Virus record (IMG/VR): IMGVR_UViG_3300046804_004993 | Span: 1-28,927 of that record | Length of the DNA: 28,927 bases | Strand: one strand, 5' to 3' | Origin: a virus | Part shown: positions 1 to 26,247 of the stretch, piece by piece | Layout: the number at the start of each line of letters is the position of its first letter | Numbering within the stretch: position 1 is the first letter of the stretch | Made by a program: the position numbers and the translations under genes | The notes under the pieces: generated by a model | Databases searched by the model: none | Seen by the model: only the letters and a program-made list of their open reading frames with translations | Told to the model about the DNA's origin: nothing

Positions 1-241
1 CCATTGCATTTTTGATAATATCTTTCAAAAGATTTTGTGCCATACCAACTTCGTGATCTTGTCCAGTTGGTTGATTATCTTCCTCATATCCACATTCATT
101 ACACATATCTCCTTCCATCATTGCTCCGCATTCGTTGCAAGTTGGATACTCTTGAGGTCTACCAACTGTGTATTTTTTCATACCAATTGCGTATTCATCT
201 TGAGGAGCTATTTCATTAAGTAGTTTTTTTAGCTTTATCAT
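1..241 (-). CDS. Zinc-ribbon protein, N-terminal part (runs off left edge)
   Basis: The first 80 residues are visible; the gene continues beyond the left edge. It opens with MIKLKKLLNE, the leader type shared by several genes of this block, which may be a capsid-targeting or processing leader. Two CxxC pairs follow (CNEC at 35-38 and CNEC at 47-50), spaced as in a small zinc ribbon, then a helical stretch from about residue 66. I do not recognise a specific function. It starts 1 nt after the stop of the preceding gene (243-503), so it is co-transcribed with it. The start is clear because the ATG has the family leader and no in-frame alternative lies closer to the upstream gene. Confidence 0.75.
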   Translation of the reverse strand, partial: MIKLKKLLNEIAPQDEYAIGMKKYTVGRPQEYPTCNECGAMMEGDMCNECGYEEDNQPTGQDHEVGMAQNLLKDIIKNAM

Positions 242-242
242 T

Positions 243-503
243 TTACCTTTTATATATTTTGACTTGTAAATTTCCTGTTCCTTTTATAACTCTATGCCAA
301 GCATACTTTGGTATAAATATCGATTTATCTAATGATATCGGTAAATTATTATCCAATTGAACTTTCCAATTTGTCGGAAAAAGAGATTCAACTATTCTGT
401 CTTCTTGATCTCTATGCCACATCAATTCTATTGGATCTATATTCTCATCGAACTCTCTAATCACAAAATCGCTATCATTATGTATGTCAATGTATGGTTT
501 CAT
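243..503 (-). CDS. Small cupin-like protein
   Basis: 86 residues. The pattern WHRDQEDR around 29-36, followed by a TNWKVQLD strand near 44-51 and PKYAWHRV near 66-72, looks like a compact single-domain cupin. H30, E34 and H70 could form the metal site, in the usual cupin order H-x3-E ... H. If so it could be a small metal-dependent enzyme or sugar/nucleotide-binding protein, but no substrate can be read from the sequence. It begins directly after the stop of the 504-1124 gene with no gap. The coding call is firm because of the packed operon context; the cupin assignment is moderate and rests on motif spacing only. Confidence 0.7.
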   Translation of the reverse strand: MKPYIDIHNDSDFVIREFDENIDPIELMWHRDQEDRIVESLFPTNWKVQLDNNLPISLDKSIFIPKYAWHRVIKGTGNLQVKIYKR

Positions 504-1124
504 CTACGCCGCTGTTATTCCAAATTTTGGAAGAACTAATTTAACTATACCAGCAATCTCAACAGCTTTTACCGATCCTAACACTGCTTCTAGACTCGCC
601 ATTACTACTGAATGAGGGTTTAATATACCTTTAACTGCAGATACTAGAGCTACACCCAATACTATAGCATATATTACTTTAGCTATTAAGTGCAATTTTT
701 CTTTATCAGTTTTACCATCTTTTGTTTGCCATTGATCTTGTAAAAATCCGGTTAGTTTTATTGCTTGTTCTATGATACCTACGTATAATCCCTCCCATTT
801 TTTTCCGAATTTTTCAATTCCTTTTCCTGCTTCTGATTCGCTCTTACCAGTAAATTTTTTAGCTATGAACGAAACAGCTTTTCCTAACCACTCTATCAAT
901 TTAGGTGCGGCTAATAATCCACTTGCAACAAGACTTCCTACTGATTCATCTAATTGATCTTCTTTTTTAGGTTGAGGCGCTTTATAACCTTTTAAACCAG
1001 ATAATCCTGATTTTAAACCAGATAATCCCGCGGATAATCCTTGATCTGCTGATTGTTGCTGTTGTTCTTCTTCTCGTAAATGATTTTCTAAAATGGTTTT
1101 TAACAATATCTTATTTGTCAACAT
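504..1124 (-). CDS. Repeat-containing protein with one hydrophobic segment
   Basis: 206 residues, function not recognised. The N-terminus (MLTNKILLKTILENHLREEE) is amphipathic and contains possible hydrophobic-x-Glu cleavage motifs (ILE, LRE). Residues about 29-46 are a low-complexity glycine/leucine/serine repeat with a 7-residue period (SGLSGLK units), mirrored by a 17-nt direct repeat in the DNA. A Pro/Lys/Asp-rich linker follows, then amphipathic helices. A strongly hydrophobic stretch at about 146-170 could be a transmembrane helix or a buried helix, and a second hydrophobic stretch lies near 185-200. This could be an injected internal virion protein or a membrane-acting protein; both are inference. 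It is 17 nt downstream of the 1142-1438 gene. Confidence 0.7.
   Translation of the reverse strand: MLTNKILLKTILENHLREEEQQQQSADQGLSAGLSGLKSGLSGLKGYKAPQPKKEDQLDESVGSLVASGLLAAPKLIEWLGKAVSFIAKKFTGKSESEAGKGIEKFGKKWEGLYVGIIEQAIKLTGFLQDQWQTKDGKTDKEKLHLIAKVIYAIVLGVALVSAVKGILNPHSVVMASLEAVLGSVKAVEIAGIVKLVLPKFGITAA
991..1028 (-). repeat. Direct repeat coding the SGLSGLK units
   Basis: TTTAAACCAGATAATCC occurs at 991-1007 and again at 1012-1028 (plus-strand reading). The 21-nt period equals 7 codons, and a further partial copy (GATAATCC) follows around 1030-1037. It encodes the Gly/Leu/Ser repeat near the N-terminus of the 504-1124 protein. Copy number could vary by slippage or recombination. Confidence 0.8.
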
Positions 1125-1141
1125 TGGTGATAGTTTTTATT

Positions 1142-1438
1142 TTAGTGATAATTTTTTATGTATTCTGGATGTTTTAGTTCTAGTGTTTTAAGTATTATAG
1201 ATTTTATAGATTTTAACGCTTTTGCGGAAGTTAGTATTTCCGAATCTTTTATCGAGTGTTTTTTTATCGTATCATCTAATCCTTTTATTAGATCGTTTAG
1301 ACTATGCAATATTTCAGAAAAATCAGGATAGTACTCCACATCCCATTCTATTCTTCCTGTATTAGGATCAACTTTAGTTTGAGTTGTTTTAAACCCAGTA
1401 CCAGAAACTTCTAATAGATCTTTTAATTTTGGATTCAT
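1142..1438 (-). CDS. Small helical protein of unknown function
   Basis: 98 residues, not recognised. It begins MNPKLKDLLE, again a short amphipathic leader ending in hydrophobic-x-Glu. Residues about 17-40 have a beta-like pattern (TKVDPNTGRIEWDVEYY). The rest is predicted helical (two or three helices rich in Leu, Ile and Lys), with no Cys and no obvious catalytic motif. It lies 9 nt after the GNAT-like gene in the same operon. Small size and context make it a likely virion-associated or accessory protein, but nothing in the sequence fixes a role. Confidence 0.6.
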   Translation of the reverse strand: MNPKLKDLLEVSGTGFKTTQTKVDPNTGRIEWDVEYYPDFSEILHSLNDLIKGLDDTIKKHSIKDSEILTSAKALKSIKSIILKTLELKHPEYIKNYH

Positions 1439-1447
1439 ATTTTTTTA

Positions 1448-2485
1448 TTATAATGGTGTTACTGTTAATCCATTTGGCAATTCTTTTACTACAAGTATTG
1501 CGTCTTCAAATGCAAATAATAAAGTTTTGTATTTAGTTTTTTTAGAACCTATCGTATCACGTATATAAAATCTAAGAGCCGAGTTTAATAAACCTTTTAA
1601 ATTATTAAAGTTATTTACATAGTCTATGAATCTGTAATATTCACTTTTAGGTTCTTTTTTTCCATAATACATACTTCTAGATAAAGGAGTAAGTTCTAGT
1701 CTATCATTTACTTTGCCTTCCATCTTAACAATTCCATATTCTCCATTTATAAAAGATAGACCTTTTACGTTATACATGATCTTTCTAACCATTGGTGGTG
1801 GTGCTTCCATAGCGACAAAACCATCTATTCCATAAGTTTCAAAGATTGGTTTATTCTTTTTATTCAATTCTTCTGGCTGTATAGGAAGCATTATATCATT
1901 GATTATTATTCCAAAATATTTTGCAATGCTTGGCATGTAATGCATCCACATTCCTGCTGATCCTTCAAACAACATGCTATCGCTACCAAATGCTCGACCT
2001 TTGCTCTTAATGTTTTCGTATACCATAGTGTACATGAGTTTACCAACTCCGGTTCCTCTAGTTTCTAAAGCAACATTCGACCAATGCACTGTTTCTACTT
2101 CAACTCCAAATCCTTTTTTTAAATTATAAAATTCTCCTGTATTTAACTCTGTTTTGATTATACCTATGAAGTATTCTCCGATTATTTTAGCGTTAGGATT
2201 TGTTAAATAATAATTAATCTCTTTATATCTATTTTCTTTAGTTGATACTAATCTGTAACCATTAGATTCTCCTATAAAAGTAAATTTTTTCTCTATTTCT
2301 TTTTGAAATACTGGATCTGTTACAGGAATTTGTAACTCATCATAATCATCATCTCGATTCTTACCGAGAGCATGTTCAATACCATTCGTATAAATAGCAT
2401 CAGATGATATGTCTTCAGCATTATTTGAAGATGCGTGGCCTCTTCCGAATGTAATTTCTTTTACTAAGTCTGTTAATTTTATCAT
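1448..2485 (-). CDS. GNAT-like acetyltransferase domain protein
   Basis: 345 residues. It starts with the leader MIKLTDLVKE. A GNAT-like core is suggested by the strand pattern around 78-135 followed by RGTGVG at 143-148, which fits the acetyl-CoA pyrophosphate loop (R/Q-x-x-G-x-G/A), and by the helix after it (KLMYTMVYENIKSKG). The region after about 200 has no recognisable fold and makes the protein roughly twice the size of a lone GNAT domain. The likely role is N-acetylation of a protein or small molecule; substrate unknown. The gene lies 4 nt after the 2490-3077 gene. If the leader really targets the capsid, this would be an enzyme delivered with the DNA, which is inference. Other acyl-CoA-binding folds cannot be excluded. 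Confidence 0.55.
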   Translation of the reverse strand: MIKLTDLVKEITFGRGHASSNNAEDISSDAIYTNGIEHALGKNRDDDYDELQIPVTDPVFQKEIEKKFTFIGESNGYRLVSTKENRYKEINYYLTNPNAKIIGEYFIGIIKTELNTGEFYNLKKGFGVEVETVHWSNVALETRGTGVGKLMYTMVYENIKSKGRAFGSDSMLFEGSAGMWMHYMPSIAKYFGIIINDIMLPIQPEELNKKNKPIFETYGIDGFVAMEAPPPMVRKIMYNVKGLSFINGEYGIVKMEGKVNDRLELTPLSRSMYYGKKEPKSEYYRFIDYVNNFNNLKGLLNSALRFYIRDTIGSKKTKYKTLLFAFEDAILVVKELPNGLTVTPL

Positions 2486-2489
2486 GGTA

Positions 2490-3077
2490 CTACCAGTATC
2501 CTGTGAAATTTGATTTGAGTCCTAATAATTTTGCGTATCTAGGCAATCTACAACTCCAATATTTTGGAGTAGTTTTGTCTTTTGCTTGAGCACATTTGTG
2601 TCTTGCTGCGAAAGATTTCCTTGCTGCTGGATTATTTATTTTGGCTGATAATCCCGTTGTATCTCCAAATGAAACTTTTTTAATTCCTCCTCCAGGTTTT
2701 CTAACATATACATAGAACTTTTTAGAACCTCCTCTTTTTGGTTTATTCAGCTCTGGTTGTTTCTTCTTTTTTGCTTTTACCTCTAAAAGAAATTCATGCG
2801 TAATTGGATAATCCAAAGGCACTCGTACGCCTTTATATATTCCCCACTTGCCAAGATCAGTATTATCAAAATACCACTTGTCTTCTTCTATTAATTCTAT
2901 TTTACCCGCTTCGTATAGTCTCCTAGACTCTTCAAATAATTCTAGGTATTTTACCGATTGAGGTCTATATATATTTTCGTTTAAAGGAATATCATTACTG
3001 ATGTGGTAAATTAAACCCTCAGAAAGTAAGAGTCTATTTACAGTTTCATCCAATTTTATTCTTGAACAACACTCCAT
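2490..3077 (-). CDS. Conserved-looking phage protein with basic C-terminal domain
   Basis: 195 residues. The N-terminal half is acidic and helical and contains a leader-like NRLLLSE at 14-20. A Lys-rich hinge at about 101-118 leads to a basic C-terminal domain with a strand pair (KKFYVYVRKPGGGIKKVSFGD), an Ala/Arg/Lys helix (NPAARKSFAARHKC) and a YWSCRLPRYAKLLGL motif. The two Cys of the C-terminal domain could bind metal together with the His before the first Cys. From memory this C-terminal block recurs in proteins of uncultured marine myoviruses, but I cannot name a function. It overlaps the Dps-like gene by 1 nt, so the two are translationally coupled. Confidence 0.6.
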   Translation of the reverse strand: MECCSRIKLDETVNRLLLSEGLIYHISNDIPLNENIYRPQSVKYLELFEESRRLYEAGKIELIEEDKWYFDNTDLGKWGIYKGVRVPLDYPITHEFLLEVKAKKKKQPELNKPKRGGSKKFYVYVRKPGGGIKKVSFGDTTGLSAKINNPAARKSFAARHKCAQAKDKTTPKYWSCRLPRYAKLLGLKSNFTGYW

Positions 3078-3448
3078 TACTTTAGATTAATTAATTTATA
3101 TTTTGTGTGTTCTATCAATTGGACGATCTCATCTATTTGGTTTTGAATATATGAGTCTTGAGTAATCTGTTGTCTACTAGTTTCTACAAATTTGCAAAGA
3201 CCTTCAAAATACATAACGTGGTTTCCATCTTCTCTTAATGAGCTGGACATTTTATAACCTCTAACTATGCCGTAACGACCTTGAAAAGATTCTACTAGTG
3301 TATCAACAAGACCTACAATATCGTCGTAATATGTACCCAATGCTCTATGAGCTGCATCAGATCCAACGCCTTGAGCTTGCCAATGATAAATTTGAGATTG
3401 CGTTCTTGATTGTAGGAGAGTTCCTATTAATATTGCGAATTGTTCCAT
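3077..3448 (-). CDS. Dps/ferritin-like four-helix protein
   Basis: 123 residues, all-helical. The segment YHWQAQGVGSDAAHRALGTY (21-40) and what follows match the Dps family pattern. H22, H34, D49 and E53 are spaced 12, 27 and 31 residues from the first His, the same spacing as the inter-subunit ferroxidase ligands of E. coli Dps (H51, H63, D78, E82). This suggests an iron-binding, possibly iron-oxidising, Dps-like subunit that could protect DNA or the virion from peroxide damage. It is shorter than typical Dps (about 150-170 residues) and lacks the Lys-rich DNA-binding tail, so it may be a phage-specific ferritin-like protein with another role. It overlaps both neighbours by 1 nt. Confidence 0.65.
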   Translation of the reverse strand: MEQFAILIGTLLQSRTQSQIYHWQAQGVGSDAAHRALGTYYDDIVGLVDTLVESFQGRYGIVRGYKMSSSLREDGNHVMYFEGLCKFVETSRQQITQDSYIQNQIDEIVQLIEHTKYKLINLK

Positions 3449-4068
3449 TATTTTTTATCTTTTTTTTCTGTTTCTATTGGTTTTTTAGACTTTTCTATCT
3501 TCTCTAGCTTAGTCATTAAGTCGTCTACTTTATGAGTAATTTGTGCGATGTGTTCTTTATGCTTAGATGCATTTTTCGGATCTTCTTTTGCTAAATCCAT
3601 GTGCTCTTTTCTTTTCTTTTCTAGTGCATCTATAGCTTTTTTAAGTTTATCTGTAACGTCTCCTTTCTTTTCTTCTAAAGCCATTTCTTTCTGAGAATGA
3701 GCTTCGAATAAATCTTCTGCTACATCGTTTGCCATATCTTCATCTGCAAATACTGCGTGAATTTGATCTGGAACAAGTTGATGGCCGGCTCCAATACCCA
3801 TCAATGGATCGATTGGCTTAACTAAAGATGTTAATTCACAACCTGTGTATGGTTTTTGAACAGCGTAAAGTTGGTTAATTGCCCCAGGTATTACTTCTTT
3901 TTGTTCTTTTATCATTTTCTTTGATGATTTATAATTCTCTGCGTGGATTTGAAGCGCTGATATATAGCTATTTAGATCGCCTTTTGTGCATCCGACTTTT
4001 TCTCCTCTTGATCCATCGGATTTTTTCTTATAAACGCATTTATTCTTACGGTCTATTGAATATGGCAT
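3448..4068 (-). CDS. Coiled-coil protein of unknown function
   Basis: 206 residues. The N-terminal ~45 residues contain two Cys (C11, C27) in a basic segment (KNKCVYKKKSDGSRGEKVGC) that could form a small knuckle. The middle (about 60-125) is a non-repetitive domain rich in Pro and Gly, then an Asp/Glu-rich helix. From about 137 to the end the sequence is highly charged heptad-like Lys/Glu/Leu, a likely coiled coil, ending in a Lys-rich tail. No enzyme motif is visible. An ATATTTATT element stands 12 nt before the start codon, so this gene probably begins a sub-operon with the Dps-like gene. A scaffold or internal-head role is possible but unproven. Confidence 0.6.
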   Translation of the reverse strand: MPYSIDRKNKCVYKKKSDGSRGEKVGCTKGDLNSYISALQIHAENYKSSKKMIKEQKEVIPGAINQLYAVQKPYTGCELTSLVKPIDPLMGIGAGHQLVPDQIHAVFADEDMANDVAEDLFEAHSQKEMALEEKKGDVTDKLKKAIDALEKKRKEHMDLAKEDPKNASKHKEHIAQITHKVDDLMTKLEKIEKSKKPIETEKKDKK

Positions 4069-4080
4069 ATTAAAGTTTTT

Positions 4081-4089
4081 AATAAATAT
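4081..4089 (-). promoter_or_regulatory. ATATTTAT-type motif before the coiled-coil gene
   Basis: On the minus strand this reads ATATTTATT, one base different from the ATATTTATA found before five other genes. It lies in the short gap between two genes and ends 12 nt before the ATG at 4068. It is a candidate late promoter core; evidence is recurrence and position only. Confidence 0.35.
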
Positions 4090-4090
4090 T

Positions 4091-4651
4091 TTATATTTTT
4101 ATGTTTTTAAATTTTTCTATATTACTTTTTATTTCTTCATAAACTTTTGACTTATCTATCTTACTCCAAGATTCAACATCTCCATTTTCTGTAACGAAAG
4201 AATTATTTTCATTCACCCATGATTCAAGAGCTCTTTCAAAATCCTCAAGACTTGCATTTTTATTATTATTCATAATATTAGACGTATATTCTTGCCACTT
4301 TCCTTCTTGTTTTATTTTGGCTTCCATATCTACTACACAATCTAAACACATATTGTGAATTGCATACATTTTTTTATTAGCCTCATGAACTTTAAAAGGC
4401 TTTTTACAGTTTGGGCAAGCTATAGGAAGACTTCCCATGCTTTTAAATTTATCGAATTTTGTTATGGATTGCTTTATTCCATTTTTTATAGTCCATTTTT
4501 TCCCGTCTTGTTCCCAAATATCTCCTTCTTTGTGCTCTTCTTTATGGATTTCATATCCTGATTGGATTTGGGTGCGATCTCCTGCTTTACCAGTGATGAT
4601 ATTTCGCATTCTTTGAACTGTACTTTTTGAAAACTCTTTTTGTAAACTCAT
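4091..4651 (-). CDS. Zinc-finger protein of unknown function
   Basis: 186 residues. A small domain around 40-66 (GDIWEQDGKKWTIKNGIKQ) is followed by two Cys pairs, CPNC at 79-82 and CLDC at 102-105, which should bind one zinc ion. The C-terminal ~70 residues are helical and acidic. The layout resembles conserved hypothetical proteins of marine T4-like phages, from memory; no function is established there. It overlaps the upstream peptidase/HAD gene by 4 nt (ATGA), which indicates coupled translation. It could be a nucleic-acid or protein adaptor; nothing catalytic is visible. Confidence 0.65.
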   Translation of the reverse strand: MSLQKEFSKSTVQRMRNIITGKAGDRTQIQSGYEIHKEEHKEGDIWEQDGKKWTIKNGIKQSITKFDKFKSMGSLPIACPNCKKPFKVHEANKKMYAIHNMCLDCVVDMEAKIKQEGKWQEYTSNIMNNNKNASLEDFERALESWVNENNSFVTENGDVESWSKIDKSKVYEEIKSNIEKFKNIKI

Positions 4652-5532
4652 AAACCAAATTTTTGTAGTATTGTTATTGTTTTGTCTGCGCTTTTATGTG
4701 TGATACCTATGCCTCCAGAATCTTGCCATGGAGCTGTATTTCTATAAAAATCATCTATTAATATAGATCTCTTAGGATCGAAATCTGAAAGTACTTCGTG
4801 TTTTAATCCAGTTTGTGCGAACATTATATCTTGTGGTTTTGGATCTAAATTTTTCGATATCCACTGTAATTTTCCCGCTCTTGCATGAATAAATGAGCTA
4901 GGACTAGTTAATATTATAGGAGAATAATCAGATATATAATCCCAAAGTTGTTTTGCTCCTGGAAACCACGGCATTTCTGACCAGTATTTTATACCAATAT
5001 CGTCTACGGCTTTTTTCATTAGTTGCGAACCTTTTTGATTAGCGTATTCTCTTGGTAATATTCCATAATAATGTTCAAATTGAGCATCAAAATCACAAAG
5101 AACACCGTCCATATCACAAAATATTGTAAATCTTGGAGATTTTGACATCTCTAAAATATTTACCAATTTTGATTCATATATTAGTTTATTTTTTTTGCCA
5201 TATTTTCTCATAATCATGCCTGAAAAAGCGTTTGCTTCATTTTCTATCTCAGATCCATCTGCACCTGCACCAGGAAATAGTCTTCCTTCGATATTTTGTT
5301 TGTGATGAACTAATTCATGAGACGTTGTTCTAAGTATATCAGCTAAATTTCTTTTCCCTATGTATACAAATAGTGTATTTATAGCTGGTCTGTATTCACC
5401 AAAGCTTCTTCTAGAGACTACCCAATTGTGATCAGTTATTAGTTTTATACGCGGAAGCTCATCTATATTTAGAAACTCTTTACAATAAAGTAAAAAATCT
5501 TTTATGACATATGCTTTTTCTTGTATTGTCAT
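4648..5532 (-). CDS. Fusion: HExxH zinc peptidase-like domain plus HAD 5'-nucleotidase-like domain
   Basis: 294 residues with two recognisable halves. Residues 1-115 carry HELVH at 72-76 (the HExxH zinc motif) followed by ENEAN at 97-101, where E97 or E99 could be the third ligand, as in gluzincin-type peptidases. Residues 135-294 are a HAD hydrolase: motif I DMDGVLCD at 140-147 (nucleophile D140, acid/base D142), motif II LTSPS at 208-212, and motif IV IDD at 259-261. The HAD part resembles deoxyribonucleotidases (5'(3')-nucleotidase type), which would dephosphorylate nucleoside monophosphates. The joint contains NILE (125-128), a hydrophobic-x-Glu motif like that at the N-termini of neighbouring proteins, so the halves might be separated by a phage protease (inference). 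It overlaps both neighbours by 4 nt. Confidence 0.75.
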   Translation of the reverse strand: MTIQEKAYVIKDFLLYCKEFLNIDELPRIKLITDHNWVVSRRSFGEYRPAINTLFVYIGKRNLADILRTTSHELVHHKQNIEGRLFPGAGADGSEIENEANAFSGMIMRKYGKKNKLIYESKLVNILEMSKSPRFTIFCDMDGVLCDFDAQFEHYYGILPREYANQKGSQLMKKAVDDIGIKYWSEMPWFPGAKQLWDYISDYSPIILTSPSSFIHARAGKLQWISKNLDPKPQDIMFAQTGLKHEVLSDFDPKRSILIDDFYRNTAPWQDSGGIGITHKSADKTITILQKFGL

Positions 5533-6119
5533 TTTATTATCTTAGTTAATAGTCCAAAAACGTCTTTAGTTACACCTTGATTGTATGCAGAATCTGGTAA
5601 AAATGTGGCGAAATTTTCAAAGTCTCCACTTTTTAAAGCAGCTCGCATTTGCGTAGCACTTATTCTACCAAATTGATCTGGAATTATAATTTGTTTAACT
5701 TTGTCAGGAAATTTCTCTTGTAATTTTTTAAAATAGCCCAATTCTACCGCTTCTTCTTTCGCAGATCCTACATAAACTGTTTTTACTTCGGGATTTTGCA
5801 TGATATACCTAAAAATGTCTTTTATAGGTGTGCCTTCTGTGGATTCTTTCACATCAATTTTTGCGTTAGGCTCAGCTTTTAAGTATTCCTCCCATATTTT
5901 TAAACTATCTTTGGATGTGATACCATATTTTTCAACATTACTAATTATCACATACACTTTATTTACATTAGGTTGTTGAGATAGAAATTTAGCGGCTTCA
6001 AAATGGCCTTTGTGAGGTGGTTTGAATTTACCAGGATAGAAACATGGACCAGTTAATTCACTTACCTCTTTCAGAATTTCTTTAATTATCTCAAATCCTA
6101 TTTGTGAATAATCACGCAT
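5529..6119 (-). CDS. HxGH-type nucleotidyltransferase (NMNAT/cytidylyltransferase-like)
   Basis: About 196 residues from the ATG at 6119; an in-frame TTG lies two codons upstream but is less likely. Domain start GPCFYPGKFKPPHKGH holds the HxGH nucleotide-binding motif (residues 36-39), and ISATQMR at 153-159 matches the second family motif (ISxTxxR). Both define the adenylyl/cytidylyltransferase superfamily (NMNAT, phosphopantetheine adenylyltransferase, glycerol-3-phosphate cytidylyltransferase). The probable reaction is transfer of a nucleotide from ATP or CTP to a phosphorylated acceptor. An NAD-salvage (NMNAT) role is a fair guess for a phage but the acceptor cannot be read. A leader-like EILKE precedes the domain. 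It overlaps the kinase gene by 8 nt. Confidence 0.8.
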   Translation of the reverse strand: MRDYSQIGFEIIKEILKEVSELTGPCFYPGKFKPPHKGHFEAAKFLSQQPNVNKVYVIISNVEKYGITSKDSLKIWEEYLKAEPNAKIDVKESTEGTPIKDIFRYIMQNPEVKTVYVGSAKEEAVELGYFKKLQEKFPDKVKQIIIPDQFGRISATQMRAALKSGDFENFATFLPDSAYNQGVTKDVFGLLTKIIK

Positions 6120-6915
6120 TTGCAAATTTATTTAATTTCAATTTTATTTGTTCAGGAGTATCAAAATTTATATCTTTGATCATTTCCATTTGAGATTTAA
6201 TAGTCTGATTCATAGTCTTTATTTTCTCAATAGAAGCTTGTTTTTCTTCTGGAGATTTTTCTTTACCCTTAACTTTAAATGGATCGAAAAATGTCTTCTT
6301 TATATTAGGATGAGACGGATCAAAATCAGGAAATTTGATATCGCTTTTTTCGTATGCTTTGTAGATTATCAAATCTTGTCCAAAAAGAGATTTATACTTC
6401 TCAATATTAGCAACTAGTGACGACCAACTTCTTAATATTATTGATGGCATTAATGTCCGACCCCCTTCTTCACCTCTTTTGATATTTCTGTGAAGAGATA
6501 TGTCAGGGGTTACGAAAACTAACACCATCATTGTCTTATATCCAATTGATTCTAATTCTTTTTTCTTTTTAGCGACCTCATTGTATGAAGCTCCTGTTCC
6601 ATCTACTATAATATCTTCTAATTCTCCTTTGGATTTAGTATATTTGTCTCTCTGTATTTTTTGAGCAGTAGCCATAGCTTTTGCAGCTGTAGAAAGTTGT
6701 TCAGGAGATGTATATTTTCTAAAATCTAAAGGTAAACCCGCTTTTTGGAGTAATGGTTCGTATTCATCGTCAATGTTTAGAATAGAAAAATCTCCTAATT
6801 TATCAATATACTGTCGTCTAAACGTAGATTTACCTGCTCCGGCTGATCCGGCCATAAAAATCGCCATCGGTTGAGCAAAACTCTCTCTTAAAAGTAAAGA
6901 TTTTAGTGATATCAT
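6112..6915 (-). CDS. P-loop kinase, zeta-toxin-like
   Basis: 267 residues. Leader MISLKSLLLRE, then a strand and Walker A loop GSAGAGKS at 23-30. IDDEYEP near 48-54 supplies the acidic residues usual in zeta-toxin/polynucleotide-kinase-type folds, VDGTGA near 104-109 is a Walker B-like strand, and RGEEGGRTLMPS contributes lid arginines. The C-terminal ~60 residues are a charged helical extension. The family phosphorylates small molecules or nucleotides (zeta toxins phosphorylate UDP-N-acetylglucosamine; relatives act on RNA or nucleosides). The substrate here is unknown. A later ATG at residue 17 (MAIFMAGSAG) would also give a complete kinase domain, but the leader similarity with other genes favours the first ATG. 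An ATATTTATA motif stands 3 nt before it. Confidence 0.75.
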   Translation of the reverse strand: MISLKSLLLRESFAQPMAIFMAGSAGAGKSTFRRQYIDKLGDFSILNIDDEYEPLLQKAGLPLDFRKYTSPEQLSTAAKAMATAQKIQRDKYTKSKGELEDIIVDGTGASYNEVAKKKKELESIGYKTMMVLVFVTPDISLHRNIKRGEEGGRTLMPSIILRSWSSLVANIEKYKSLFGQDLIIYKAYEKSDIKFPDFDPSHPNIKKTFFDPFKVKGKEKSPEEKQASIEKIKTMNQTIKSQMEMIKDINFDTPEQIKLKLNKFANA

Positions 6916-15145: not shown

Positions 15146-15604
15146 ATGGCAAAAATAGACTTATTAAGACAGATAATACGTGAAGAAGTCACAAAAGCTC
15201 TTAGACAGGAATTACCTAAAATATTGTCTGAAGGAGTGAAAAAAGAAACCGGCGTTAAAAATGTTATTCGTGAAATGAAAAAATCAGAATTTCCTATTAC
15301 GCTCAATACTGTTGACACATATACAAAAACACCTAGTCAACAATATACTAATTCACCATTCATGAATTCTCTATTAGCAGAAACTGCGAAAACAATGATG
15401 AATGATGATTACGATAATTTTAATATGACCACAGAAAACGTAAACCCTGTGTCTTTCTTTCAGCCAAAAGAAGCAGCAGTCGGAGATATTGGAGGAATGT
15501 TGACATCAGCAAGACCGAGTTCAGAAATTTCTATGGTTCAAATAAATGAAGTCCCAGATTATTCACATCTAATGAAAAAAATGCTTGACAAAGGCGTAAT
15601 GTAA
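15146..15604 (+). CDS. Small virion-block protein with leader-like N-terminus
   Basis: 152 residues. The N-terminus MAKIDLLRQIIREE is amphipathic and leads into a helix (VTKALRQELPKILSEG). It resembles the leaders in the minus-strand block (hydrophobic-x-Glu at IIRE and ILSE). The rest is low in predicted structure, with NSPFMNSLLAETAKTMM and a Met/Asp-rich C-terminal part. There is no enzyme motif. It lies 1 nt before gp25. It could be a small baseplate or assembly protein, or an internal protein; the sequence does not decide. Confidence 0.55.
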   Translation: MAKIDLLRQIIREEVTKALRQELPKILSEGVKKETGVKNVIREMKKSEFPITLNTVDTYTKTPSQQYTNSPFMNSLLAETAKTMMNDDYDNFNMTTENVNPVSFFQPKEAAVGDIGGMLTSARPSSEISMVQINEVPDYSHLMKKMLDKGVM

Positions 15605-22956: not shown

Positions 22957-23028
22957 ATGAATTACGAAGTAGTAAATATATCGACAGACGTAAAAACGTA
23001 TATAGCAAATGGAGTTTTAACGCATAAT
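22957..23028 (+). other. Hint domain C-terminal block (blocks F-G)
   Basis: Encodes residues 1-24 of the permuted Hint protein, ending ANGVLTHN. The terminal His-Asn is the asparagine-cyclisation pair of inteins and bacterial intein-like domains. The next residue is Lys, so C-terminal cleavage rather than ligation would be expected. Confidence 0.7.
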
Positions 23029-23733
23029 AAATTCACTAGTTGTGCGAGTTCGGTAACAAAGGATCTTCAATGGGGAATAACAATATCTTTTGGTGATGAT
23101 TATGTACCCGCATATCCATTAACCCTAGAAGTAGGTACATCGTACACTACGTTCGATGATATATTGGGATGTAAAAGATTCGAACACGCTGATGGAACAG
23201 CATATAAATCATTTACAATAACGAATACAGGTCAAACGTATCCATATACGTATAATGTTAATTTTAAAAGATACGGAGGAAGTGTTAACGGAGCCATAGC
23301 GTATTCTGCCTCAGTTTCAGGTCAAGATGCTAATGGCAAACCAGCTTCTGGATCTTCAAATACGAATATATCGTATAAAAGTGAAAGATGGCCACCATCT
23401 GGAATCGAATGTTTAACACCTAATACTCAATTAGAAAAATACGATGGATCAATCGTATTATTGAAAGACGTAGAAGTAGGAACTGAATTAATGAGTATTG
23501 ATTTAAAATCGATGCAAAAAATTAAAGCTGTAGTAACTGGTAAGACTATTCACTCAGTTGAAAATATTTATTCTATAAACAAAGGTTTATTGTCGTGTTC
23601 TGAGAGTCATTTACATATTGTTAAAAGAAATGATAAGTGGAGAAAAATCAGATCAAACAAATTAAAAATTGGAGATTTGTTACTCGATAGAAATTTTAAT
23701 GAAATTCAAATAAATTCAATAGATTATATTTAA
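22957..23733 (+). CDS. Circularly permuted Hint (intein-like) protein: C-block, beta-rich segment, N-block
   Basis: 258 residues. Residues 1-24 (EVVNISTDVKTYIANGVLTHN) are the C-terminal end of a Hint/intein domain: strand, block F-like region and block G ending H23-N24, followed by K25. Residues 25-151 are an uncharacterised beta-rich segment with two Cys pairs in possible contact. Residues 152-258 are the N-terminal part of a Hint domain: C152-LTPNTQLEKYDGS (block A), VEVGTELMSID, then SESHLHIVKR (block B with His), KLKIGDLLL and a last strand EIQINSIDYI. Joined as 152-258 plus 1-24, the pieces would make a complete Hint domain of about 130 residues. The order C-block, cargo, N-block is the inverse of a normal intein. 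The catalytic Cys152, block-B His and Asn24 are all present. K25 is not a splicing nucleophile and the usual block-F His seems replaced by Lys. Cleavage, or less likely cyclisation, of the central segment is plausible. Confidence 0.65.
   Translation: MNYEVVNISTDVKTYIANGVLTHNKFTSCASSVTKDLQWGITISFGDDYVPAYPLTLEVGTSYTTFDDILGCKRFEHADGTAYKSFTITNTGQTYPYTYNVNFKRYGGSVNGAIAYSASVSGQDANGKPASGSSNTNISYKSERWPPSGIECLTPNTQLEKYDGSIVLLKDVEVGTELMSIDLKSMQKIKAVVTGKTIHSVENIYSINKGLLSCSESHLHIVKRNDKWRKIRSNKLKIGDLLLDRNFNEIQINSIDYI
23410..23730 (+). other. Hint domain N-terminal block (blocks A-B)
   Basis: Encodes residues 152-258 of the permuted Hint protein. It starts with CLTPNTQ, the Cys that would make the N-S acyl shift, contains the block-B His in SESHLHIV, and stops after the strand EIQINSIDYI, exactly where the C-terminal block would continue in an ordinary Hint domain. 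Confidence 0.7.
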
Positions 23734-24545: not shown

Positions 24546-25205
24546 ATGTCTTATTTAAGTAGTACATCGGTAGTAGTAGATGCCATTCTAACAAAAAAAG
24601 GTAGAGAACTCTTATCAAGAAATGACGGATCTTTTAGAATAACTCAATTTTCATTAGCAGACGATGAGATTGATTACGCATTGTACAATCCAAACCATCC
24701 TTCTGGATCTGCTTTTTATGGAGAAGCAATTGAAAATATGCCTGTACTCCAAGCGTATCCAAATGATCAAGAGATTATGAAATATAAATTGATAACATTG
24801 CCAAGAGGTACTGCAAAAATGCCTTTTTTAAATGTTGGATTTTCAAATATTTCATTACAACAAGGATCTTCTATAGCAATTACTCCTCAAACTCTCAATT
24901 ATTTAGGAGCAAATTCAACATATGAACAATCAGGATATGTAGCTACTATAGGAGACGTTAGAACGATGTCTACTTTTACTGGAGTTGGTATTAATACACC
25001 TGAAGCGACTCAGTTAAATACAACTTCTACGGTAGGAACTAATGTAAGTAAAACAGTAATTGGAACAACAATAAATTTAACCGCAACAACTGTTAATACT
25101 CTATTTGGAAACAATACAACCTTAACTACAACATTAACAATCACAGGTAGAGATTCAGGAGCAAGAATATCTATCCCAGTAACCATATCATATTTAAACA
25201 GATAA
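24546..25205 (+). CDS. Virion structural protein with N-terminal 'LTKKGRELL' domain
   Basis: 219 residues. The N-terminus SSTSVVVDAILTKKGRELLS followed by SFRITQFSLADDEIDYALYN is a conserved opening of a structural protein in T4-like marine and cyanophages (from memory). The region after about 95 is beta-rich, and from about 155 the protein is a Thr/Val-rich beta domain (TTVNTLFGNNTTLTTTLTIT) probably forming a sandwich. There are no catalytic residues. It starts a new transcription unit by motif position and is followed 4 nt later by the next structural gene. Role: baseplate-peripheral or fibre-attachment protein. Confidence 0.65.
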   Translation: MSYLSSTSVVVDAILTKKGRELLSRNDGSFRITQFSLADDEIDYALYNPNHPSGSAFYGEAIENMPVLQAYPNDQEIMKYKLITLPRGTAKMPFLNVGFSNISLQQGSSIAITPQTLNYLGANSTYEQSGYVATIGDVRTMSTFTGVGINTPEATQLNTTSTVGTNVSKTVIGTTINLTATTVNTLFGNNTTLTTTLTITGRDSGARISIPVTISYLNR

Positions 25206-25209
25206 TATA

Positions 25210-26247
25210 ATGTCATTTACAAGATTCGATCAAACAGATATCGTAATTTCTTCAGATACAGTAACAGCTCCCGCATGGAGTTCAAATAGACCAGAGTTAA
25301 CCGCTTTATATAAAGTTGCCACTCCAGACGACGTTAGTAAATTTTATGTAGACGCGTATAATGATACTGTTGGTTCCACCAACTCTGCTATACAATTTAG
25401 TATTGCATATGGTCATGTAAATGGCACGGGATCAGCTCCAATAAACACTCTTGTTAAATCTAATACCTATTCAAGAATAAACTACGGTCAATATAGAAAT
25501 ATTGTGTACGGTGATAATGAAACTCGTTTTAATTTCGACCAAGGTAATACATCGTCTTTAGATGTATTCGCTATTCAAATAGATAGAAATAGATATAAAG
25601 AATCTCTAATGCCGGGTACGTTTAATATAAAATTAACGTCTGGATCACAAACACTCTATCTAACCGATGATTCATTAGATAACACGACAGCAACATATCT
25701 TGATTGTGGAAGAGCTTATAATATAATTTCTGGCTCTAATGGAACCGCAGGAGGAGTATCTCAATTAACAGGAGCAGCAAGACAAGGTTTTACCGCATCA
25801 GGATCTTATGGATTATTTTTACCAGATGTTGGTCTAATAGTAATAAATCCTATGGCTTTACGTCAAACAGTTGCTAACGGAGGATTAAATGCAGGTTTTT
25901 ATTCTGGAATTGGAGATTCAGCGGTCAATAATGCTAATAATTTGCAAATGTATGATATTATCAATACTGGTGCAAGCTTTAAATTAAACTCGCAAGAAAC
26001 AATATCATCAGACTACGTATTTGTTAGAATAAAAAACAGTGATTATAATTATAGTACGAATCCATCTTTTATTACAGGATCTGGAGATTTGCTATATCAA
26101 ACATTTATAAACAACTCACAAACATATGTAACGACTGTGGGAATGTATAATGATAATAATGAATTATTAGCCGTGGCAAAATTATCTAAACCACTTGTAA
26201 AAGATTTTACTAAGGAAGCTCTAATTAGAGTTAAATTAGATTGGTAA
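25210..26247 (+). CDS. Tail structural protein with C-terminal module duplicated in next gene
   Basis: 345 residues, beta-rich. The N-terminal ~240 residues (FTRFDQTDIVISSDTVTAPA, then a Gly-rich stretch around 180-240) form one domain. The C-terminal ~80 residues (VFVRIKNSDYNYSTNPSFIT, then QTYVTTVGMYNDNNELLAVA, KLSKP) form a module seen again in the 26285-26587 protein. The N-terminal start and the C-terminal module resemble proteins of marine T4-like phages that lie near the baseplate wedge genes. The likely role is a baseplate or tail-surface structural subunit. No enzymatic signature. Confidence 0.65.
   Translation: MSFTRFDQTDIVISSDTVTAPAWSSNRPELTALYKVATPDDVSKFYVDAYNDTVGSTNSAIQFSIAYGHVNGTGSAPINTLVKSNTYSRINYGQYRNIVYGDNETRFNFDQGNTSSLDVFAIQIDRNRYKESLMPGTFNIKLTSGSQTLYLTDDSLDNTTATYLDCGRAYNIISGSNGTAGGVSQLTGAARQGFTASGSYGLFLPDVGLIVINPMALRQTVANGGLNAGFYSGIGDSAVNNANNLQMYDIINTGASFKLNSQETISSDYVFVRIKNSDYNYSTNPSFITGSGDLLYQTFINNSQTYVTTVGMYNDNNELLAVAKLSKPLVKDFTKEALIRVKLDW

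Follow-up and report, generated by a model that had tools for sequence, protein, structure and literature searches.

Candidate capsid-targeting leaders on the enzymes of an operon in a T4-like phage fragment

The operon and its leader-bearing products

We analysed a 28,927-nucleotide stretch of viral DNA (IMG/VR record IMGVR_UViG_3300046804_004993, positions 1 to 28,927; 28.9 kb, hereafter the window), a fragment of a T4-like phage, and focus on short N-terminal peptides, here called leaders, on several otherwise unrelated products of its minus-strand operon at 1-6915, which runs away from the exonuclease gene. The nearest named relative is Flavobacterium phage immuto (vB_FspM_immuto, MW353177), with 67-68% nucleotide identity across 8% of the first 8 kb and 30-71% protein identity in the primase, exonuclease, baseplate and tail genes; because immuto is the nearest named relative, the host group of the window phage is probably Bacteroidetes. 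For comparison we used immuto, G002 (a 107.8 kb contig), G010 (179 kb) and G011 (181 kb), in all of which a homologous operon is flanked on one side by the primase/exonuclease genes and on the other by the genes for terminase, portal, S77 prohead protease, scaffold and major capsid protein. In immuto, where the operon stands between the exonuclease and terminase genes, leaders are borne by a nucleotidase, zinc-ribbon and other proteins. The window ends short of the head genes to which the operon leads in the relatives. Outside immuto, gene starts come from a simple caller that takes the earliest ATG.

An initial annotation, made from the letters of the window, had proposed that these leaders are T4-like capsid-targeting sequences on a set of packaged enzymes, and every peptide that it quoted was found in the translated open reading frames (ORFs) where it had been placed. 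The leaders and related segments are:

212..241, minus strand: leader MIKLKKLLNE of a small zinc-ribbon protein (ORF 2-241, truncated by the contig end), a match to the strict pattern described below
1086..1124, minus strand: leader-like start MLTNKILLKTILE of ORF 504-1124, absent from the initial annotation
1409..1438, minus strand: leader MNPKLKDLLE of ORF 1142-1438 (orthologues MKLKDLLE and MHSLKQLLE)
2456..2485, minus strand: leader MIKLTDLVKE of ORF 1448-2485, a GNAT-like acetyltransferase
3018..3032, minus strand: LLLSE, residues 16-20 of ORF 2490-3077, a weaker candidate
4648..5532, minus strand: fusion of an HExxH peptidase (SHELVHH in the sequence) and a HAD 5'-3' deoxyribonucleotidase (phrog_2643, E=1.2e-23)
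5149..5169, minus strand: KLVNILE at the joint of this fusion, NILE being residues 125-128 of 4648-5532
6066..6119, minus strand: N-terminal extension MRDYSQIGFEIIKEILKE preceding the HIGH-type nucleotidyltransferase 5529-6119; EILKE is residues 14-18, with the core IKEILKE
6883..6915, minus strand: leader MISLKSLLLRE of the Zeta_toxin/AAA_33-type P-loop kinase 6112-6915
15146..15184, plus strand: start MAKIDLLRQIIRE of a tail-cluster gene, not counted as a leader

Orthologues vary these starts. The G002 orthologue of ORF 2-241 begins MSIKLSSLLKE. ORF 504-1124 starts MLTNKILLKTILEN and was counted among the leader carriers because its homologues start MKLMxLLLEAE; homologue starts are MKLMSILLEAD, MKLMHLLLEAE and MKKSELVKLIKEE, i.e. 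differing leaders on one mature domain. Similarly, in more distant orthologues of ORF 1142-1438 the mature domain is the same and the leader is of the MKKSDLKKLVED type. The Leu-Ser-Glu of the LLLSE segment in ORF 2490-3077 is also present in immuto_171, and LKE or LSE is retained across 8 orthologues of the nucleotidyltransferase.

Profile matches bear out the kinase (Zeta_toxin, PF06414, E=2.6e-14; structure match to PezT, E=6e-4), the nucleotidyltransferase (Pfam Citrate_ly_lig / CTP_transf_like) and the nucleotidase of the enzyme set named in the initial annotation; its acetyltransferase-like member is backed weakly. No Pfam match was found for the window protein of ORF 1448-2485, and AlphaFold models from 3 and 7 sequences were of low confidence, with the leader region disordered; the best fold matches of one such low-confidence model (pLDDT 54.6) were nearly all GNATs (E 0.01-0.5), weakly suggesting a GNAT-like fold. 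Kinase, nucleotidyltransferase and nucleotidase also occur together in pelagiphage HTVC008M, and the related Melnitz kinase starts MKTFAELQEG, nearer to T4's own wording.

Several side observations concern these proteins. At loci L169-L173 and L175, the kinase domain is N-terminal in ORFs of 1134-1272 residues, preceded by MSLKKLVEEITKPILQEG, in which there may be two cleavage sites; such ORFs are possibly packaged polyproteins. By eye, the 907-residue immuto_182 (L004:7087-9810) is a fusion in which a HIGH-type nucleotidyltransferase is joined by a second nucleotidyltransferase-like domain and by HExxH metallopeptidase stretches. In the window, 3077-3448 is a leaderless DUF5856 protein matching phrog_858 (starvation-inducible regulator), and 4091-4651 has a conserved KKEFSxxxVQRMRNIIT start with a distant likeness to the MKKQILSEQFRRMQKLAGIITE leader, which may be a further docking element. 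Finally, leader-bearing gene pairs are also found away from the head region (immuto 24977-25865; G011 38330-39129).

Register, enrichment and exchange of the leaders

In T4, the ten-residue capsid-targeting sequence (CTS) of IPIII suffices for packaging, residues 4 and 7 acting in targeting and residues 8 and 10 in processing (PMC9026906). The usual leader wording here is M-I-K-L-x-x-[LI]-L-x-E, with the core h-x-x-h-h-x-E (h, hydrophobic). We collected 37 distinct kinase starts, 32 of which have Glu at position 10; in these 32, positions 1, 4 and 10 are invariant (Leu at 4), position 7 is Leu or Ile and position 8 is Leu, Phe or Ile, and the entropy reaches 1.8-2.8 bits at positions 3, 5, 6, 9 and 11-14. 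Thus, by per-column entropy, the conserved columns of the kinase leader coincide with the T4 CTS residues. Moreover, Leu-4 and Glu-10 are the sole invariant residues among the first ten in 7 orthologues of the GNAT-like family. The conserved leucines are written with up to five synonymous codons (Leu-4), and this free synonymous variation at conserved positions points to selection on the peptide. The residue at P3 in 175 class-a starts is mostly Leu (L 159, V 8, I 5, F 3), giving an ending [LIV]-x-E; Val at P3 occurs in the window GNAT leader and at the putative major capsid protein site of the clade. In the position after the leader Glu, Ser and Ala rank among the most frequent residues.

The leaders are concentrated in the operon. 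A loose leader pattern matched 5 of 12 operon proteins in the window (shuffle mean 1.13, p=0.003) versus 2 of 25 elsewhere in it, and a strict T4-register pattern matched 3 of 12 (p=0.004) versus 0 of 25. Pooled over the window, immuto, G002, G010 and G011, the strict pattern was found in 19/82 operon proteins, immuto's short stretch ahead of the primase included, versus 7/773 others (Fisher OR 33, p=2e-15). The initial annotation had singled out replication proteins as a set in which the motif should not be equally frequent, and the strict pattern was found in 0/26 immuto replication/nucleotide genes. In the portal-to-capsid stretch of the pooled genomes it matched 4/29 proteins, all four being the capsid protein. 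The core h-x-x-h-h-x-E was present in the first 26 residues of 27/70 operon proteins of the four relatives versus 41/748 others; among internal stretches of those same operon proteins its frequency was roughly 3% at most.

The leaders also move between proteins. Clustering on residues 23 onward gave 894 mature-part families, 67 of which hold a leader, where 24 were expected and the highest count among 200 shuffles was 35; 20 families had it in two or more members (3.2 expected). One mature part can occur with different leaders: G007_44 begins MIKLIALLLE|AERTKSGV, and its L121 orthologue has a MKQLINEILRFQKLAGL (LAGL-type) leader followed by LISMLIE|AERTKSGV. Likewise, MIKL-type and MKKSxL-type leaders occur on a shared mature part in the families of ORFs 1142-1438 and 504-1124 and in a 15-member family. 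Such swaps among orthologues break at the Leu-x-Glu boundary. The unfused HAD nucleotidase starts MIKLLDILKEAEEQQYKIYCDMDGVL in G011 and MKKVMGNLADLLLEESDFMPKYQIYCDMDGVL / MKKVMGNLADLLLEESDF in immuto; in G010 it has no leader, and in most other phages the protein begins at the fold, the leader being absent. The NILE that the initial annotation had placed at the fusion joint is real, and we read it as a relic of the leader borne by the unfused nucleotidase of G011 and immuto. In immuto the fusion partner of the metallopeptidase is the nucleotidyltransferase, whereas in the window it is the nucleotidase. A blastp search for the kinase orthologue in immuto found none, and no comparable leader block was seen in the head block of cyanophage ACG-2014f, where one was looked for.

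Links to the head and the weighing of explanations

A gp21-type protease, which the initial annotation had proposed to look for, is present in the relatives that share the operon and absent from the 28.9 kb fragment. In immuto, G002, G010 and G011 it is a Peptidase_S77 protein (Pfam E=9e-35) in the same late cluster, and alignment to T4 shows that the catalytic triad is kept, in GELxHP, in SSRG and in an Asp ahead of the C-terminal block. Moreover, the capsid proteins of >30 relatives start M[AS]NLVQSLL(x)ES, a leader-like segment. They also contain a conserved QLVxE, whose next residue is Ser, Ala, Thr or Gln; its aligned counterpart in T4 gp23 is the maturation site LTE|A. A second leader type (class c), MKKxLxEVRQLQKIAGILKE, copies RWQKLAGI(K), the C-terminal end of the scaffold protein, and also closes with the h-x-x-h-h-x-E core (IAGILKE, LAGIITE). 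In 80 head loci (L034-L113), RWQKLAGI(K) was found 60 times at protein C-termini, 55 times at N-termini and never between. The sharing of RWQKLAGI by the scaffold C-terminus and the N-termini of small neighbours makes it a likely core-docking signal.

Altogether, these observations make it likely that the leaders are T4-type capsid-targeting sequences, removed by a gp21-type protease, on a set of packaged enzymes. What speaks for this part of the initial annotation is the location by the head genes, the T4 register, the leader exchange, the protease with the T4 triad in the relatives and the lack of strict matches among replication genes; its plus-strand example was not convincing. The 15146 gene lies in a baseplate/tail cluster, in the same tail position as immuto_156, G002_111, G010_126 and G011_10, and these homologues, with shifted starts, move the motif within a long amphipathic helix, so that MAKIDLLRQIIRE is probably an ordinary amphipathic helix and no leader. 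Elsewhere in the tail region, 22957-23733 starts VVNISTDVKTYIANGVLTHNK and further on has CLTPNTQLEKYDGS, by eye an intein/Hint-like motif pair.

Several points weigh against the proposal of capsid-targeting leaders. Many operon proteins carry no leader (e.g. 3077-3448, 3448-4068 and 4091-4651). The primase, a replication protein that the initial annotation did not list, starts MDNSKYVLGLLESVLG and matches the loose pattern, probably as a false positive. The window contains no protease gene and no capsid gene; we attribute the absence of the prohead protease to the shortness of the fragment. The literature searched held no virion proteomics for any phage of the clade, and packaging and cleavage are both inferred. 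The pooled counts combine orthologues from different genomes and are therefore non-independent. In the T4 positive control, the strict-register pattern recovered ipII, ipIII, Alt and gp24 among 17 matches (6.1 expected), most of which are not known internal proteins, limiting its precision. Finally, the strict pattern and the core h-x-x-h-h-x-E were written after the window had been seen, and we therefore ran an unbiased search of four-position N-terminal patterns over 840 proteins of the four relatives, with the window left out. The top pattern was hydrophobic-2, Leu-4, hydrophobic-8 and Glu-10 (11 observed, 0.37 expected, log10 p -12.5), compared with a best log10 p of -7.8 in shuffles.

The leaders could instead be permanent assembly tags, docking proteins at the capsid shell or scaffold core and staying uncut, which we regard as unlikely. 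Targeting is separable from processing in T4, where a CTS with Asp at position 10 targets and is left unprocessed (PMC9026906), and the class-c copy of the scaffold tail also points to docking; however, docking alone needs no Glu, and here Glu is invariant together with Met-1 and Leu-4, Ser and Ala are common after it, and the exchanges break at it. It is very unlikely that the leaders are amphipathic helices addressing the enzymes elsewhere, e.g. to a membrane, a replication compartment or a partner protein: the sequences are indeed amphipathic and the enzymes could work late in infection, but the matches cluster beside the terminase, portal, protease and capsid genes, the capsid protein has a similar start, and the register is that of the T4 CTS, gp24 included. 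We give only a slim chance to an origin in chance or at the nucleotide level, with AT-rich MIKL starts aiding translation initiation, or to an N-terminal helix that is part of each fold. Phage genes are indeed rich in AT and often start with M-K or M-I, and the window by itself yields a small count, but the shuffles, the free choice of synonymous codons, the exchange of leaders and the homologues with the same fold and no leader contradict these readings. Translation-initiation artefacts and fold parts were both rejected on the last three of these grounds.

If the leaders are capsid-targeting sequences, the operon at 1-6915 would be a cargo operon in which about ten N-terminal residues of many products form the targeting leader. 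During head assembly, the amphipathic leader would dock the enzyme onto the scaffold core, the gp21-type S77 protease would cleave after the Glu and free the enzyme within the maturing head, and the freed enzymes would be packaged with the DNA, injected, and be the first to act in the new cell. The cargo would comprise the P-loop kinase, the nucleotidyltransferase, the HAD deoxyribonucleotidase with or without a fused metallopeptidase, the GNAT-like acetyltransferase and zinc-ribbon proteins. As the tag matches T4's capsid-loading tag, the virus particle probably contains these enzymes and delivers them together with its DNA. A wider proposal, to which we give an even chance, is a modular cargo-loading code, in which leaders copied from the docking ends of head proteins (the capsid N-terminus and the scaffold RWQKLAGI tail) would be swapped among proteins, and this would allow dozens of unrelated enzyme families to enter the particle and be injected as an arsenal that acts first.

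Relation to known systems and significance

In T4, IPI-III and Alt carry a CTS and gp24 a propeptide, and the S77 prohead protease cuts after (L/I)-x-E (PMC9026906, PMC5694885). The T4 CTS and the leaders described here have in common a length of ten residues, hydrophobic residues at 4, 7 and 8, Glu at 10, unrelated carriers and an S77 protease (here, in the relatives). They differ in wording (MIKLxxLLKE here, MKTYQEFIAE in T4); moreover, the carriers here are many more, mostly enzymes, in one operon by head genes and known from sequence alone, and the leaders include variants such as the scaffold-tail type. In SPN3US and phiKZ, a gp21-related protease cuts virion-borne head and ejection proteins after x-x-Glu motifs, removing N-terminal propeptides (PMC5694885). 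Their propeptides mostly exceed 100 residues and end in A-x-E or S/A/G-x-E, in contrast to about 8-11 residues and [LIV]-x-E here. In the open literature searched, such leaders were not found described beyond T-even and giant phages.

To our knowledge, IPI, IPII, IPIII and Alt are the only injected T4 proteins with known roles; IPI-III block restriction systems. The 7-deazaguanine DNA modification genes QueC, QueD, FolE and DpdA are encoded in immuto, G010 and G011, and injected anti-restriction proteins would therefore act alongside a modified genome in these phages.

Because the leaders match the residues mapped in T4, they suggest that one loading rule may be common to distant T4-like phages. 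Injected phage proteins are hard to detect, and a leader that can be read from the sequence would single out numerous enzymes of an abundant, little-studied T4-like group as candidates for injection. If the modular code is true, injected proteins would be identifiable without recourse to anything other than their sequence.

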